DNA of 64,000 bases from Sphingomonas taxi (GTDB lineage Bacteria; Pseudomonadota; Alphaproteobacteria; Sphingomonadales; Sphingomonadaceae). Where the stretch lies: positions 2,413,001 to 2,477,000 of the forward strand of contig NZ_CP009571.1 of assembly GCF_000764535.1 (NCBI RefSeq). The letters are read 5' to 3'. Each line of letters begins with the position of its first letter. Position 1 is the stretch's first letter. Shown here in pieces: positions 35,538 to 43,069 of the stretch. The position numbers and the translations under genes are program-made. The notes below the pieces were generated by a model. The model made no database searches, was not told the origin of the DNA, and saw nothing but the letters and a program-made list of their open reading frames with translations.

Positions 35538-36710
35538 TCACGCATCCGAACGCACCAGCTTGATATCGCGGTCGGCTGCCCAGCCATGGACGTCCTCACG
35601 ACGAAGGGCAGTGCTCATCAGTTCGGGAAACTGGTCGGGCGTACAGGCGAACACGGGAATGCCCAGCGCCGCCACCTGCGCCGCAAGGGCGGGGTCATAG
35701 GACGGGCGGCCACTGTCGGTCAGTGCGAGGAGCACGATGACGTTGACGCCCGATATCGCAAGCCGCGCGAGCCGATCGACCAGCGCATCGGCATCGCCGC
35801 CCTCGTACAGGTCGGTGATCAATACGAGATGCGCCTTTGCCGGCCGCTCGATGCGATCCTCGCAATATGCGACGGCACGGTTGATGTCGGTGCCCCCGCC
35901 GAGTTGGACGCCGAACAGCACCTCGACCGGATCCGCCAGTTCCTCGGTCAGGTCGACGATCGCCGTGTCGAAGCAGACGAGCCGCGTGGCGACGACCGGC
36001 AGCGACGCCATGACCGCGGCGAAGATCGAGGCGTAGACGACCGAGGTCGCCATCGAGCCCGACTGGTCGACGCACAGGATGACCTCGTCCAGATCGACGA
36101 TGCGCCGCTGCCGGCGCACGAAACCGATCAGTCGCTCCGGCACCACCGTCCGATGCATGGGCTGATAGGTTGCGAGATTGGCGTGGATCGTGCGCGGCCA
36201 GTCAATATCGGCGAAACGCGGCCGGTTGGTCCTGCGCGAGCGGTCGAGTGCGCCACGGATCGCGTTCGCCGTGCGCGTCTCCAGCAGCGTCATGAGTTCC
36301 GCGACGACCTTCGCGATCACCGCCCGTGCGGTGTCCCTGGTCCTGTCCGGCATCACGCCGCGCAGCGCGACCAGATCGGCGACAAGCCCGACATCGGCCT
36401 CGACGGTCGCCAGAAACTCGGGTTCGAGCAACATCTGGCGCAGCCCCTTGCGTTCGAACGCATCCTTCTGGATCACCTGAACAACCGGCGTGGGGAAGAA
36501 TTGGCGGATGTCGCCGAGCCATTTGGCGACGCGCGGCGCCGACCCACCGAGCCCGCCCCGGCCCTTCCTGCCGTCCTCGCCATCACCATAAAGCGCGGAC
36601 AATGCGTCGGATAGGCGGCGATCGCTTTCGGACAGCGGCGATGCCCCGTCCCCACCGTCCTCGATACCCAAAGCCAGCATCCAGCGGCGGTGACGTTCGT
36701 CCTCGCTCAT
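35538..36710 (-). CDS. Von Willebrand factor A domain protein of the five-gene AAA system
   Basis: A 390-residue protein with a helical N-terminal half and a C-terminal vWA domain. The metal-ion-dependent adhesion site is complete: DQSGS at residues 215-219, Thr in GGGTDIN, and Asp in LITDLYEGGD. No signal peptide, so it is cytoplasmic. MoxR-type ATPases typically work with vWA proteins of this kind, which recruit substrates through the Mg site. Its ATG overlaps the restored stop of the DUF5682 gene (ATGA), supporting tight coupling in one operon. Confidence 0.88.
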   Translation of the reverse strand: MSEDERHRRWMLALGIEDGGDGASPLSESDRRLSDALSALYGDGEDGRKGRGGLGGSAPRVAKWLGDIRQFFPTPVVQVIQKDAFERKGLRQMLLEPEFLATVEADVGLVADLVALRGVMPDRTRDTARAVIAKVVAELMTLLETRTANAIRGALDRSRRTNRPRFADIDWPRTIHANLATYQPMHRTVVPERLIGFVRRQRRIVDLDEVILCVDQSGSMATSVVYASIFAAVMASLPVVATRLVCFDTAIVDLTEELADPVEVLFGVQLGGGTDINRAVAYCEDRIERPAKAHLVLITDLYEGGDADALVDRLARLAISGVNVIVLLALTDSGRPSYDPALAAQVAALGIPVFACTPDQFPELMSTALRREDVHGWAADRDIKLVRSDA

Positions 36711-38934
36711 CGCAATGCTCCCGTCATCAAGGCGATGACACGCGTCTCATGCGCCGGCCATATCGCCGCGGCGCCCGGCAGCAGCCGATAGCCGCGCGCG
36801 CCCGTGCCGGACCGGCCGAGCACCACGTCTATCAGCCGGCGGCGCTCGTTACGGTCGAGCGCGGCGAACACCCGCCGGAACAGCGGCAGGTTGGCCACGA
36901 ACGTATTCTCGTCCAACCCGACGAGCCAGCCATCGACCGCCTCGCGCAACGCCATATCGTGCAGAAGCCGCTGCCCCGCGCCTTCGAGAAAGCCTCGAAA
37001 AAGCCAGCGGCGTCGGCGACCGGCAATGCCGGCGACAGCATCCGGGCGAGCAGCGCGGCGGCTTCGTCGGCGCCGAGCACCTCCGCTTCGTAGAGCAGGC
37101 GGGCAGCGACGCCCGCAATCAGCCGCGTTGTCTGCGCGTCGTCGCACAACCGGCGCAACGACGCGTGCCAGGTGGCGACGATATCGGATGCGAGCTGTGC
37201 CAGCTGGATCGCGCCATCCGCCGCAACGATTGCATCGCGCAGGGTCGCCGCCGCTTCGGCATCCAGATTGCGGGCCGCATAGGGAAAGGCGAACGCCGCC
37301 TGCACCGCGATCCGCGGCATCAGCCCGGCAAGATGCTCGGCCGTTCCGGATCTTGCCTCGCCATAGCGGAGGACGTCGGCCATCGGCGGCAGCGCCGCGA
37401 GCAGCGCCTGCCCGTCGCTGGTCAGGGCGGCCCGCCGTTCGAGGAGCGTGATGCCCAAGTCGGTGGCGCCGGCCAGATCGGCGACCATCGCATCGCGCAC
37501 GAGGGTGGCCAGTTTGGTGAGATCGGGCTGCGCTTGCATCGCCTCGCCGAGCCGCGCTTCGGCGGCGGCGGCAATCGTCGATCCGTGGACGAGATTCTCG
37601 ATCAGTCGCACGGCGAATTCGGGCTGCCAGGCCAGGATCCAGTTTTCGCGGAACGTCCCGCGGCTGCGGCCGGCATCGGCGAGGCGCCCCCAGGGCACGT
37701 CGAGCACGTTGAGCCGGTGGAGCAACGTGGAACGCGCCAGCCCGCTGTCGCTGCGCAGGTCGACGGTCAGGGCGCGTTCGAGCGCCTCGGGCTTTAGTCG
37801 CGTGGCCTTTTGCTGACGCTGCAGATCCTCGATCAGCGGGGCAAGCGGCGTGTCTGCGGGGATCGACCCGACCGCGGAACCGATCAGCAATTCGGCGGAG
37901 ATATCGTCCCAGAGCGCATGTTCGCCATTGCACAGACAGGCGATCGCGGCTTCGCGCAGTTCCTCGAAACCGGGATGCGGGCGAGCGCGCAGGGCGGCGA
38001 GCGCATGCCCCAGCCGCTGCGCTTCGATCACCGCGGCCGTCGAGACCGAATGGCCGCGCGCGCGCAACTCACGTGCGATCCGCGCAAGCCATATCGCGTC
38101 GCGGTGACCGGCATGACGCGTGGCCCACAAATGCGCGCACCAGCCGGGCGCGACCACGCCAGCACCATAGCCGCTCGCCCGGGCAAGACGAGGCGCGGTC
38201 CAGGGCGCCCATGTCGCCCTCGCCTTCGTCCTGGATCGCGCCTTCAGCAATGCGCGATCGGCGGTGAAGTTGATCTTGGTCGCCAATGCGGGGACGTGCC
38301 AGGCGCCGCACACCACCGCGATCGGGAGGTCGCTTTCCTTGGCGGCCCGGGCGATCTCGAGACGCATATGGGCTTCACGCGCGGCCTCATAGACGGAGAT
38401 GGTCCGGGCCTCGCCGCGGAGCGCGGTCATCGCATCGGCTACCGCGGCGAATACCGGCGTCGAGCCGGGATTTTCCTCGATGACATCGGCCCACCAGGAT
38501 TCGCCGTCGGCATAGCCGGCGGCCGCTGCGAGCTGGCCGATCGGATCGCGGCCGACCGGATCGACGTTGGCCTCGGCCTCGGCTGCATCCGACTCTGCGC
38601 CGCCTGCCGAACCGCCTTGCCGGTCGCTGGCCGGCAGGTCGATGAAGCGGAGCGCGGCGTCATGCGCGACCGCCCAGCGCGCCGCCTGATATTCGGGCGA
38701 ATAGTCGGCGAAGGGAAAGAAGCGGGCGTCGGCGGGATCATCCTCGGCATAGGTCAGCAAAGCGACGGGTGTCACCATCGCCGGGTCGGCGAGCAGCGGC
38801 AGCAGATGCGACGCATCGGCGGGGCCCTCGATCAACACCGTGCCGGGCTGAAGCGCGTCGAGCGCCTCCACCAGCCGCCGCGCCGAACCGGGACCGTGAT
38901 GGCGGATGCCGAACAGCGAGACTGCCGCCACCAT
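36707..38934 (-). CDS. DUF5682 protein, TraB/TIKI-like N-terminal motifs; apparent frameshift near 36995
   Basis: About 742 residues if one base is restored; as written the frame ends at 36832 (700 codons). The N-terminal 220 residues show GIRHHGPGS (9-17), Glu36 in TVLIEGPAD, and CGAWHVPAL with His213. This GxxH...E...GxxH pattern is what TraB/TIKI/EreA-type hydrolases use, so a metal-dependent hydrolase is possible (inference). The rest is alpha-helical. Around 36992-36998 one base is missing: downstream, another frame encodes GFLEGAGQRLLHDMALREAVDGW and ends at 36707, overlapping the vWA start. Possible lesion, sequencing error or recoding. Confidence 0.75.
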
Positions 38935-38938
38935 CGCG

Positions 38939-40018
38939 TCAGATCAGCTCGGACAGCGAGGCATAATAGTCTTCGAACCCCCGGCGTTTCTTGAGCACGG
39001 TCTCGAGATATTCGCCCAGCACCGCTTTGTCCTGCACGGGATCCTTCACCACCGCGCCGATCATGGTGGCCGCCAACGTCCCGGGCGTGAGCCGACCGTC
39101 GTTGAAGAAGGTCGCCTGGCTGATCCCGCCGACCATCACGCCGATCGCCTCGGCGGTGGACAACCCGCCCGAGGGCGACTTGAGCGCGACCTTGCCGTCC
39201 TCGGTCGACCCGGCTCGCAGTTCGCGGAAGATCGCGACCACCCGCGCCACTTCCTCGGCGACATTCCTGGGCTCCGGCAGGTCGAGGCTCTGCGCCATCT
39301 CGCCGACCCGCTTGACGATGATCGCCACTTCCTCCTCGGCACTGTCGGGCAACGGCAACACCACCACGTTGAACCGCCGCTTGAGCGCCGAGCTGAGTTC
39401 GTTGACGCCCTTGTCGCGGTTGTTGGCCGTGGCGATGATGTTGAACCCGCGACGGGCATATACCGCGCTGTTCAGCTCCGGGATCGGCATCATCTTTTCG
39501 GAGAGCACGGTGATCAACGTGTCCTGCACGTCGGATCCCATGCGGGTCAATTCCTCCAGTCGGCAGAGCTTGCCCGACTCCATGGCACGCATCATCGGAG
39601 TGGCCACCAACGCCTCGCGACTCGGCCCGTGCGCGAGCAGCTGCGCATAATTCCAGCCGTAGCGGACCTGGTTTTCGTCAGTCCCGGCCGTGCACTGGAT
39701 CACCATCGTCGAATCGCCCGCGACCGCGGCGGCGAGATGCTCGGACACCCAGGATTTGGCCGTGCCTGGCACCCCAAGCAGCAGCAGCGCACGATCGGTG
39801 GCGAGCGTCGCCACGGCCGTCTCGATCAGCCGCCGGTCACCGACGTATTTGGGTGTGACCGGTGTGCCGTCGGCGGCGGTACCGCCCATCAGATAGGTGA
39901 CCACCACTTTGGGCGAGAGCGCCCAGCCGGACGGGCGCCGATCGGCATCACCGGCGGCCAGCGCGGCGAGTTCACCGGCATAGATCGCCTCGGCGGGCAG
40001 GCGCAGCATCTCGCTCAT
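38939..40018 (-). CDS. MoxR-type AAA+ ATPase
   Basis: A 359-residue AAA+ protein. Walker A GVPGTAKS is at residues 82-89; sensor 1 is in IIATANNRD, and the arginine-finger region in LSSALKRRFNVVVLP. The Walker B segment reads KLCRLEELTRM, Glu-Glu where MoxR proteins normally have Asp-Glu. The N-terminal 60 residues precede the ATPase core. It sits 4 bases upstream of the DUF5682 gene and overlaps the DUF5691 gene. With the vWA protein it forms the expected MoxR-vWA pair, a chaperone-like module. Confidence 0.9.
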   Translation of the reverse strand: MSEMLRLPAEAIYAGELAALAAGDADRRPSGWALSPKVVVTYLMGGTAADGTPVTPKYVGDRRLIETAVATLATDRALLLLGVPGTAKSWVSEHLAAAVAGDSTMVIQCTAGTDENQVRYGWNYAQLLAHGPSREALVATPMMRAMESGKLCRLEELTRMGSDVQDTLITVLSEKMMPIPELNSAVYARRGFNIIATANNRDKGVNELSSALKRRFNVVVLPLPDSAEEEVAIIVKRVGEMAQSLDLPEPRNVAEEVARVVAIFRELRAGSTEDGKVALKSPSGGLSTAEAIGVMVGGISQATFFNDGRLTPGTLAATMIGAVVKDPVQDKAVLGEYLETVLKKRRGFEDYYASLSELI

Positions 40019-41421
40019 TCGGTTCGTCTCCTGTCTTCGAGCGCAGCATTGAGCCGCAGCATGTCGAGCCGCGGATCGGAGGCGATCAGCCCTGTCGCCG
40101 CCAGTCGTTCGAGCGCCTGCGCCGCCGCTGCGCGCGAGGCGAGCAGGCCCAATGCCTGGAGTTCGATCGCCTGATCGGCGTGCGCGGCGTCGTCCGATCC
40201 GAGGGCGGCGAGCAGCGCCTCGCCCGCGGGAGTGGCGATCGCCTCGTCGATCCCGCCAGCGCCGCCCGCGACGATCAGTGCCATCGCAAAGCCGGCCCCC
40301 TTCGCGCGAAGCAGATAGATCGCGATCTGCCGACATTGCGCCGCGGTCAAGCGCGGCAGAAGCTGCATCAAAATGGTCAGATCGATCGCGGCTGCCGCCG
40401 TCAGCGCCGCCATGATCGCGGCGATGATCGCATCGGTCGCCGAGCGTGCCGCCATGGCCGCGCACAGCAAATCCACGTGCACGTCGCTCCCCCACGGCCA
40501 AGCCCCGGCGAGATCGGTCGGGGACAGGCCGAGCGCCCGCGCGAAGGCATCGAAGGACACCGTCTGAAAAAGCGCCGCGCGGCGATCCCGTTGCGCCGCG
40601 ATTTTCAAGGCCCGCGGTACGATCGCGCGGGTACGGCGCAACAGGCCCCACGTTTGAAGGGAGAAAAACTCTGCTAGTTCGGTCGCATCCGCATCGGCGG
40701 CATCGCCATGACCCAGCCGCGCCAGCAGCGCGGCCGCCACTGCCTTCACGCGCGGCGCACGGTCGCCGGTAAGACGTTCGAGCAATGGTCGGTCGGCGTC
40801 GGACAGACCCGTCGCCATCGCCTCGACGAACCGCAGGCGATGACCGGGCGCCTCGCCGCCGATCTTCTCCGCGAGCAGCCCGGCCGCCCAGGCGGGATCC
40901 TGCCGGCGCAACGCCGCGAAAGCGGCATGACGCATGGCCGGACCGAAGCTGTCCCAGCTCCCGGCATCAAGAACCTCCGGCCTGTCCGATCGCGGTTGCG
41001 AGGCGTCGGCCCAATCCTGCCATGGTGCATAGACCTCGGGCACGTCCTCGCCCGGTCCGGGCATCCAATCGCCCGGATGAAGCGTCCAGCCCCGACCGTC
41101 GAGAAAGACGAGCAGGTGGCGGCGCAACGACGGCTCGCGCAGCGCCTGGAGCAGGCGCCGCACACGTGGCCGCAACGGCTCCGGAAGCGGCGGCCGGGCA
41201 AGGGACGGGATGTCGCCGCGTGGCCGCACCTCGCCCGCGGGCTCGGCGACCGTCAGCGCTCCGAGCAATTGCCCGGACAACGCCAGCAGCCGCAATTCGG
41301 CTTCTCCGATCTCACCTCCCAGCGCATCGCGCCAGACGGCGGGGGCGGCCGGTACCGCGCTGCCGCCGATCGTCCAGCGCGTCAGCACCGGGCCAAGCGC
41401 GTCGAGCAGGGTTTCAGCCAT
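40015..41421 (-). CDS. DUF5691 helical-repeat protein
   Basis: A 468-residue, almost entirely helical protein, rich in Ala/Leu/Arg, with HEAT/ARM-like repeats through the second half (for example DRPLLERLTGDRAPRVKAVAAALLARLGHGD near 205-235). The N-terminal 130 residues include LLALSGQLLGAL and a conserved-looking WTLHPGDWMPG. No catalytic motif is visible; a scaffold or adaptor role is the natural reading. It overlaps the SWIM gene by 8 bases and the ATPase gene by 4, so it belongs to the five-gene operon. Confidence 0.8.
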   Translation of the reverse strand: MAETLLDALGPVLTRWTIGGSAVPAAPAVWRDALGGEIGEAELRLLALSGQLLGALTVAEPAGEVRPRGDIPSLARPPLPEPLRPRVRRLLQALREPSLRRHLLVFLDGRGWTLHPGDWMPGPGEDVPEVYAPWQDWADASQPRSDRPEVLDAGSWDSFGPAMRHAAFAALRRQDPAWAAGLLAEKIGGEAPGHRLRFVEAMATGLSDADRPLLERLTGDRAPRVKAVAAALLARLGHGDAADADATELAEFFSLQTWGLLRRTRAIVPRALKIAAQRDRRAALFQTVSFDAFARALGLSPTDLAGAWPWGSDVHVDLLCAAMAARSATDAIIAAIMAALTAAAAIDLTILMQLLPRLTAAQCRQIAIYLLRAKGAGFAMALIVAGGAGGIDEAIATPAGEALLAALGSDDAAHADQAIELQALGLLASRAAAAQALERLAATGLIASDPRLDMLRLNAALEDRRRTE

Positions 41422-42790
41422 GGCCGATACGCCCCCAGGGCGTCCGCGCCGCGAGCATCTCCAGCCGGCTGCCCGACCAGAGGGCCGCGCTGCGCGTCAG
41501 CTCGGTGCCGGCGATCAACCCTTCCGCACCGCCCGCCAGCGGCAGCCGCGCGGTGCCTTCGCGCGGTAGCCACCATGACGTGCCGGCACGATCGTAGCCG
41601 ATCCGTCCCGGCGGAAGCAGGATCGGTCGCTCCGCGGCCCATGGCTCGGCGAGCAGCGGCGCGGCCAATGCTGCCTGCAGCGGCATATCCGCCGGCGGCC
41701 AGTCGAGCGGCGGACCATCGACCAGCGCCGCCTCGCGCTGGATCAGCATGGCGCGCAGCGGGACGCGCGCGGGAAAGAACAGCAGTTCGCCGACGAACTG
41801 TTCGCCCGGGGTGAACACCGTCGCGCGCCGTCCGGCGCTGGCCGGAAAGAAATCGAGCAGCATCGCAAAACGGGGACCTTCGGTCAGGTTGAGCAGCCAC
41901 GTCGCCTGCGAGATCAGCCCGTCGCGGCGGGTACGGACCCGCTCCGCAAGCACGTCCCAGGCGGCGGTGACCCGCAGCACGGCCGGATCGGCGAGCAGGG
42001 TCTCGCGGCTCTCGGCCGATGCGACGGCGCGCCGCAGCTCCGGGTCGCGGGGATCGGCGCGGAAGGCCCGTGCGAGCAGCACCAGCCGCGCCAGTTCCAC
42101 CACCGCGCCGCGCACCCGGTCGCCGGCCGGCAGCGCGAGCAATCGAGCGGGCAAATCGTCCACATGGCCTGCCAATGCGGCTGCCTTGCCGTCGACCAGT
42201 CGCGCGCCGATGCGGCGACAGCGCACCGTCACGTCGTCGACGAAACCGGCAAGGCCGAGGCGAAGCTGGTCGCCTACCCATTGCTCGAGCGCGTCCAACG
42301 CGTCGCGGATCGCCCGCCCGGTCTCTTCCGCACGCCTGGCCCCGGCCGCCGCGCGTCGCGCCGCGGTCCTGGCGTCGGGAACCGCTTCAGGCTCGGCGAT
42401 CCGGGCAGCGTGCAGGTTCTTGTCCGCCACCGGCATCAGGGGCTTGGGCGCTGCGGTCGAGCGTCGACGCCCCAGCCATTCGGTCACCCACGCGGGCGTC
42501 TCCGCAGCGGGAAAGGCAAGAAGCGCTTCTGCATACAGCCAGAACAATGCAAGAGCGTGTTTGCACGGGAATTTGCGCGAGGGGCAGGTGCATTTGCTCG
42601 CCAGGTCGCGCAGGTCGGCCATCACCCGATAGGGATTGGCGCCGGACCCGGCACATTCGCCCCAGATCAGCGCCGCGTCGTGACTCGTGCCGATGCCGGA
42701 CCATCGTGCGGGCTTCGCGAGACCCGCCGCAGCCTTGAGCGAGGCCTGGTCGGCGGCAAGCTGTTCCACCGTCCTCAAGTCGATCACCAC
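41414..42790 (-). CDS. SWIM zinc-finger protein, first gene of the five-gene AAA system
   Basis: A 458-residue protein. The SWIM motif is exact: Cys67, Cys69, Cys76, His78 (CTCPSRKFPCKH) with a following hydrophobic helix. SWIM domains bind zinc and often DNA or proteins. The rest of the protein is helical with WLLNLTEGPRFAMLLDFFPAS and a C-terminal beta-rich region. It leads the operon SWIM-DUF5691-AAA-DUF5682-vWA, so its start lies next to the promoter region at 42791-42992. I cannot name the DNA or protein it recognises. Confidence 0.85.
   Translation of the reverse strand: MVIDLRTVEQLAADQASLKAAAGLAKPARWSGIGTSHDAALIWGECAGSGANPYRVMADLRDLASKCTCPSRKFPCKHALALFWLYAEALLAFPAAETPAWVTEWLGRRRSTAAPKPLMPVADKNLHAARIAEPEAVPDARTAARRAAAGARRAEETGRAIRDALDALEQWVGDQLRLGLAGFVDDVTVRCRRIGARLVDGKAAALAGHVDDLPARLLALPAGDRVRGAVVELARLVLLARAFRADPRDPELRRAVASAESRETLLADPAVLRVTAAWDVLAERVRTRRDGLISQATWLLNLTEGPRFAMLLDFFPASAGRRATVFTPGEQFVGELLFFPARVPLRAMLIQREAALVDGPPLDWPPADMPLQAALAAPLLAEPWAAERPILLPPGRIGYDRAGTSWWLPREGTARLPLAGGAEGLIAGTELTRSAALWSGSRLEMLAARTPWGRIGHG

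Positions 42791-42992: not shown

Positions 42993-43069
<77 letters not shown>

Follow-up and report, generated by a model that had tools for sequence, protein, structure and literature searches.

A conserved MoxR-vWA operon of Sphingomonas taxi, related to E. coli yehLMPQ, encodes a DUF5682 protein with a predicted TIKI-superfamily hydrolase domain

The operon described here lies in a 64,000-nucleotide stretch of the Sphingomonas taxi contig NZ_CP009571.1 (the window), in which all positions below are counted. On the minus strand, reading from 42790 down to 35538, five genes encode in turn a SWIM zinc-finger protein, a DUF5691 protein, a MoxR-type AAA+ ATPase, a DUF5682 protein and a vWA_CoxE protein, each with a Pfam match (Table 1). 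An earlier note on this DNA had named the same genes in the same order, and the Pfam search it proposed placed every family assignment above cut-off. Its motif readings were also accurate: the SWIM residues Cys67, Cys69, Cys76 and His78, which form the CxC...CxH signature, are positioned exactly right, and the Walker A sequence of MoxR and the metal ion-dependent adhesion site (MIDAS) of the vWA protein are both present. The genes are closely packed, with, in gene order, an 8-base overlap, a 4-base ATGA overlap, a 4-base gap and a second 4-base ATGA overlap, a spacing typical of translational coupling.

Table 1. Genes of the operon and the flanking tRNA gene (positions in the window; aa, amino acids)
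Feature	Position	Strand	Evidence
SWIM zinc-finger protein, 458 aa, GTG start	41414..42790	-	PF04434 E 1.1e-7; CTCPSRKFPCKH at residues 67-78
DUF5691 protein, 468 aa	40015..41421	-	PF18944 E 9.8e-20
MoxR-type AAA+ ATPase (AAA_5), YehL-like, 359 aa	38939..40018	-	PF07728 E 4.2e-36; Walker A GVPGTAKS; Walker B-like RLEELTR
DUF5682 gene, YehM-like	36707..38934	-	PF18934 E 8.2e-189, in two frames
vWA_CoxE protein, YehP-like, 390 aa	35538..36710	-	PF05762 E 3.6e-55; MIDAS DQSGS
tRNA-Arg(CCG), flank outside operon	42993..43069	-	ARAGORN

The earlier note was right about the genes and their order but overlooked that DUF5682 is not a single open frame in the assembly. The frame switches at ~36994. The first open reading frame (ORF; 38934-36832, 700 residues) matches P0001, an intact 742-residue relative with 96% identity to the window protein, up to residue 647. 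A different frame, ~36994 to 36707, encodes the last 95 residues (Pfam positions 630-689), and the overlapping ORFs across the gene span 36832-38934 and 36707-37933. Since identity to P0001 is equally high on either side of the switch (629/647 residues upstream, 93/95 downstream), the break suggests a sequencing error in the assembly or a very recent mutation. A programmed frameshift was considered and rejected: no recognised slippery heptamer was seen by eye at the switch, and the closest relative is intact. Note that on the Hymenobacter radiodurans plasmid NZ_CP037921.1 (86065-88318) DUF5682 is annotated as three pieces, suggesting a broken copy.

A scan of a genome collection matched at least 591 stretches, at least 582 of them relatives, and the best 80 of these were examined as loci; being top-scoring, this sample leans to close relatives of the window protein. 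SWIM, DUF5691, MoxR, DUF5682 and vWA were complete, in the same order and on one strand in 65/80 loci. This bears out the earlier note's statement that these families are neighbours in other bacteria and supplies the co-occurrence count it had called for; with the order repeated so often, the five-gene arrangement is not due to chance. Five separate ORFs were present in 62 of the 65 complete loci, the other three (L075, L076 and L100) having SWIM and DUF5691 in a single ORF, and the SWIM motif was found in 64, the exception (L042) having a short SWIM ORF (167 aa) at a contig start. One further locus (L040) contained all five genes in a different order. The remaining 14 of the 80 loci were incomplete. 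In eight of these (L044, L049, L050, L059, L062, L065, L081 and L087) a cluster lay near an end of the fetched stretch, a position that need not account for every missing gene (for example, vWA in L050), and six (L053, L088, L092, L093, L097 and L102) lay away from stretch ends. By record titles, the 80 loci include Proteobacteria, Cyanobacteria, Bacteroidota, Actinobacteria, Acidobacteria, Planctomycetes, Verrucomicrobia and Chloroflexi, with several metagenome-assembled genomes. Overlapping ORFs in some loci suggested a MoxR-DUF5682 fusion, a candidate that was dropped as no ORF matched both profiles.

Two samples, both with the window's own genome among them, served to count co-occurrence: 299 Pseudomonadota genomes and 101 from the genus of the window. 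DUF5682 was found in 12/299 Pseudomonadota genomes, with scores falling into two groups: E ≤5e-189 (the window's type, 6 genomes) and E ~1e-98 to 1e-111 (the yehM type, named after the E. coli gene, 7 genomes), one genome (G196) carrying both. DUF5691 was above cut-off in exactly the six genomes with window-type DUF5682, and sub-threshold in two others. The 12 loci from this sample beyond the window's genome comprised five with the five-gene order (L018-L022) and seven of the yehM type (L023-L029). Within the genus, DUF5682 was present in 7/101 genomes; four had the window's type, and these same four were the ones with DUF5691. Pairwise distances among the five proteins were correlated across 67 loci (r 0.77-0.93; no permutation as high in 500 for any pair), although shared phylogeny alone yields similar values and two of the loci (L019 and L086) are from the same genome. 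The operon is real, widely conserved and co-inherited. In the same 67 loci, MoxR and vWA were very conserved (mean identity 66% and 59%), DUF5682 was intermediate (43%), and SWIM and DUF5691 were fast-evolving (34% and 22%). Many MoxR proteins have a DE pair at the Walker B position; as a separate observation, this position reads RxEE[LI]TR in 88/91 of the MoxR ORFs.

Nucleic acids and proteins are both possible ligands of SWIM zinc fingers. The motif CxCPSRxxPC[KR]H was present in 75/78 SWIM-assigned ORFs, and the three ORFs lacking it were one misassigned DUF5691 ORF and two short ORFs. In L075, L076 and L100 the combined SWIM-DUF5691 ORFs are 977, 949 and 994 aa long. These single ORFs suggest, at the level of gene structure, that SWIM and DUF5691 work as one unit. 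A wider fusion count was discarded: of 38 ORFs with matches to both profiles, just 3 had the SWIM motif. The SWIM profile bled into DUF5691 ORFs, and the 'SWIM' of L059 is such a bleed. A literature search, with most subscription papers outside its scope, found no paper naming DUF5682 or DUF5691.

Structure models and fold comparison predict a TIKI-fold domain in residues 1-275 of DUF5682, followed by mostly helical domains. In the model, a central β-sheet is flanked by helices, and the arrangement is closest to known TIKI structures. A pair of GxxH motifs plus a conserved Glu is characteristic of the TIKI superfamily, and the N-terminal domain of DUF5682 has all of these in the pattern GxxH…E…GxxH: G9..H12, E36 and G210..H213 are identical in 117/117 aligned homologues, the alignment having left out 2/80 loci without the exact string G[IV]RHH. 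On the fold model and these residues, we predict that the N-terminal domain of DUF5682 is a hydrolase of the TIKI superfamily (Tiki/TraB/Ere/ChaN), a new assignment that extends to its E. coli counterpart YehM. That the operon may control a hydrolase, as the earlier note suggested, gains support, DUF5682 itself being the predicted hydrolase.

Profile comparisons were also made. A TraB profile matched 6/79 DUF5682 members weakly (best E 0.0089), and ten members scanned singly, which did not include these six, gave no TraB match. With hhalign, DUF5682 compared with ChaN gave P values of 0.007 and 0.00063 at probabilities of 5.5 and 11.4%, and with TraB a P value of 0.079; loci in which the motif or the frame could not be located were dropped (15/25 for TraB, 3/20 for ChaN). 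Since this motif filter favours rows with GxxH, the comparison serves as supporting evidence only. A profile search of the PDB with the N-terminal alignment returned 11 unrelated matches only (best E 0.079) and no TIKI match. Using the full-length alignment, the ATP-synthase b-subunit appeared in 11 weak matches (best E 0.0038), which we read as helical bias. When the TraB-family protein of the window's genome was itself searched against the PDB by sequence, it gave two unrelated matches and no TIKI entry, and this search did not establish the identity of three Tetrahymena complex IV chains that had come up in the fold comparison.

DUF5682 has a counterpart in the E. coli control genome, which in strain MG1655 is yehM within yehL-yehM-yehP-yehQ. 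YehL is 40% identical to the window MoxR over 365 columns, YehP is 35% identical to the window vWA protein over 366 columns, and YehM is 29% identical to P0001 over 493 columns. The relative order MoxR-DUF5682-vWA is common to both operons. BLASTP found no match between YehQ and the window SWIM protein, but hhalign indicated homology extending beyond the zinc finger (92.7% probability, E 4.2e-7, 148 columns). In E. coli, the SWIM gene follows vWA, whereas in the window it leads. The E. coli operon has four genes and lacks DUF5691: no similarity to DUF5691 was found in YehQ, and the DUF5691 model had no match in the control genome. Genes for WGR and DUF4132 proteins lie upstream of yehLMPQ, whereas the window's genome gave no match to either family. 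Because SWIM comes first, DUF5691 is present and the genome lacks DUF4132 and WGR, the window operon is, judged by homology and gene order, a variant of the yehLMPQ kind and not the same arrangement. Of 5,426 complete E. coli genomes, 5,301 matched the yehLMPQ region, with 80% or more of its length covered in 5,162; 5,320 of its places were chromosomal and 2 on plasmids. A YehL subfamily of MoxR is named in PMC3893208, in PMC11432383 and, with reference to Snider and Houry 2006, in PMC9964418, and YehL is described as one of only two MoxR proteins in E. coli K-12. No function for the yehLMPQ operon was found in the literature searched, among the matches listed.

The neighbours of yehLMPQ bring in one alternative, in which SWIM, with WGR and DUF4132 in yehLMPQ-type loci, would sense nucleic acid, the motor would remodel a repair or RNA complex, and the TIKI domain would be a scaffold. 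The binding properties of SWIM fingers would suit such a role, as would the WGR/DUF4132-family ORFs in 8/8 yehM-type loci examined (L017, L023-L029) and in three loci of the window's type. These three, the Bacteroidota loci L072, L084 and L090, have DUF4132 directly after vWA and so link both operon types. However, the missing DUF4132 and WGR matches in the window's own genome do not fit, and the invariance of catalytic-type residues across the DUF5682 alignment is unexpected for a scaffold. We consider this alternative quite improbable.

The best explanation, to which we give about an even chance, is that the operon encodes a MoxR-vWA motor, a TIKI-fold hydrolase that this motor activates or operates, and SWIM-DUF5691 as adaptor. 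The YehL-type MoxR AAA+ ring and its CoxE-type vWA partner would form an ATP-driven remodelling motor. DUF5682 would be its dedicated partner, with the putative hydrolase at the N-terminus and the helical C-terminal part as docking surface. The putative enzyme would act, probably on peptide or ester bonds, via His12, Glu36 and His213, and the motor would either switch it on or feed it substrate. SWIM and DUF5691 would form a single adaptor that recognises the trigger or substrate; as the fastest-evolving proteins of the operon they are the likely recognition unit. The proposal draws on observed gene content, order, co-occurrence, joint divergence, single ORFs and residue invariance, together with a model-predicted fold; from these we infer catalysis, physical assembly and direction of control, each of them a step beyond the fold. 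That the ring and the vWA protein would act on DUF5682 is argued by analogy with known MoxR-vWA pairs. Such pairs are thought to bind their partner via the vWA domain and to change its conformation with ATP (PMC7159879), and the NorQ ring is proposed to twist the linker of the vWA protein NorD, driving metal insertion (PMC13036017). The 'remodelling machine' of the earlier note thus follows from the MoxR and vWA_CoxE pair and from what has been described for such pairs. No link between MoxR and TIKI proteins was found in the literature, among the matches listed.

The same analogy allows for a maturation role. MoxR-vWA, with SWIM-DUF5691, would metallate or fold DUF5682, which would then work as a lone metabolic or detoxifying hydrolase, much as NorQD serves nitric oxide reductase. 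TIKI enzymes include metal-dependent ones such as Tiki, in favour of this possibility, but the TIKI endopeptidase RRSP is reported to be metal-independent. Neither SWIM nor DUF5691 is, to our knowledge, a maturation part, and the long conserved helical tail of DUF5682 would suggest a stable complex partner. Maturation or activation of an enzyme or complex is indeed what known MoxR-vWA pairs do (PMC7159879; NorQD, PMC13036017). Taken together, maturation is possible, though unlikely.

Two observations run counter to a role outside defence: occurrence across the genus is patchy, as given above, and nucleotide homology to three of the four type-A congener loci compared (L030, L168 and L170) ends at the operon borders. 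In the fourth (L169), the tRNA-Arg side is shared with the window and the same tRNA-Arg flanks the operon. The patchiness and the ends of homology suggest that the operon moves or is lost as a unit. In the window, 202 bases separate the tRNA-Arg(CCG) gene from the SWIM start downstream of it; separately, in L168 a tRNA-Met gene lies just past the vWA end. A tRNA-associated integrative island was considered, but a repeat of the tRNA end was looked for on the other side of the operon and not found, and we do not claim mobility as an integrative element.

This distribution would suit a MoxR-vWA ternary system for anti-phage or other conflict, in which DUF5682 would be a restrained peptidase effector released upon infection. 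Conflict systems with a MoxR-vWA core and peptidase effectors are described (PMC7159879), and the window MoxR passes the Pfam bpMoxR cut-off, by 0.2 bits (27.2 versus 27). However, no VMAP, iSTAND or β-propeller partner was above the Pfam cut-off among the five proteins, PADLOC gave only marginal matches on the operon (best E 0.005), and the same five genes recur in 65/80 loci with no effector swapping. None of 40 pattern matches in viral contigs was confirmed, and 1/50,697 phage records had a distant match (28% identity); among plasmid records 36/72,556 matched, several of them megaplasmids or chromosome-sized. The check for defence or mobile neighbours that the earlier note proposed recognised no defence family among recurrent neighbours, most clusters being without annotation. 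In the clustering of neighbours from 94 sequences (the window and L017-L109), DUF4132 (11 sequences) was the only family found directly beside the operon in genera unrelated to each other. Clusters made up of three or four close relatives (Comamonas-type, Hymenobacter) adjoin it as well, and farther out, at median distances of ~3.5 kb, come two larger ones with 14 and 7 sequences; all of these clusters are without annotation and may include a defence gene. The near-universal, chromosomal presence of yehLMPQ in E. coli likewise speaks against a conflict system, which we regard as improbable, and the defence role floated in the earlier note is not supported. We infer that the operon serves general maintenance of the cell or its response to stress rather than phage defence.

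The prediction of an enzyme in YehM with named putative catalytic residues makes the operon directly assayable in a laboratory strain. The new element is the TIKI-hydrolase assignment for DUF5682/YehM, the YehL subfamily name being already in the literature. Should the motor indeed power a hydrolase of the TIKI type, this would be a new bacterial coupling of ATP hydrolysis to controlled bond cleavage. The operon might then represent an undescribed ATP-driven hydrolytic machine, present across many phyla and in nearly every E. coli, in which a MoxR-vWA motor feeds or gates a TIKI-fold protease or esterase with SWIM-DUF5691 recognition; in this full form the idea is tentative and on present evidence doubtful.

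Compared with known systems, DUF5682 resembles the TIKI superfamily (Tiki, TraB/PrgY, erythromycin esterase, ChaN, RRSP) in its predicted fold and its GxxH...E...GxxH residues. It differs in lacking the first Glu of the ExH motif, in having ~470 further, mostly helical residues, and in being tied to a MoxR-vWA motor. The ternary conflict systems (Kaur et al. 2020, PMC7159879) have a similar MoxR and vWA core with extra partners, in some cases peptidase effectors; they swap effectors, whereas the composition of the operon is fixed in 65/80 loci. With NorQ/NorD and CoxD/CoxE the operon shares a MoxR AAA+ protein and a CoxE-type vWA protein encoded together with a putative client enzyme. In contrast to these, its MoxR apparently belongs to another subfamily, SWIM and DUF5691 are added, and a TIKI-fold protein takes the place of nitric oxide reductase or carbon monoxide dehydrogenase as putative client.
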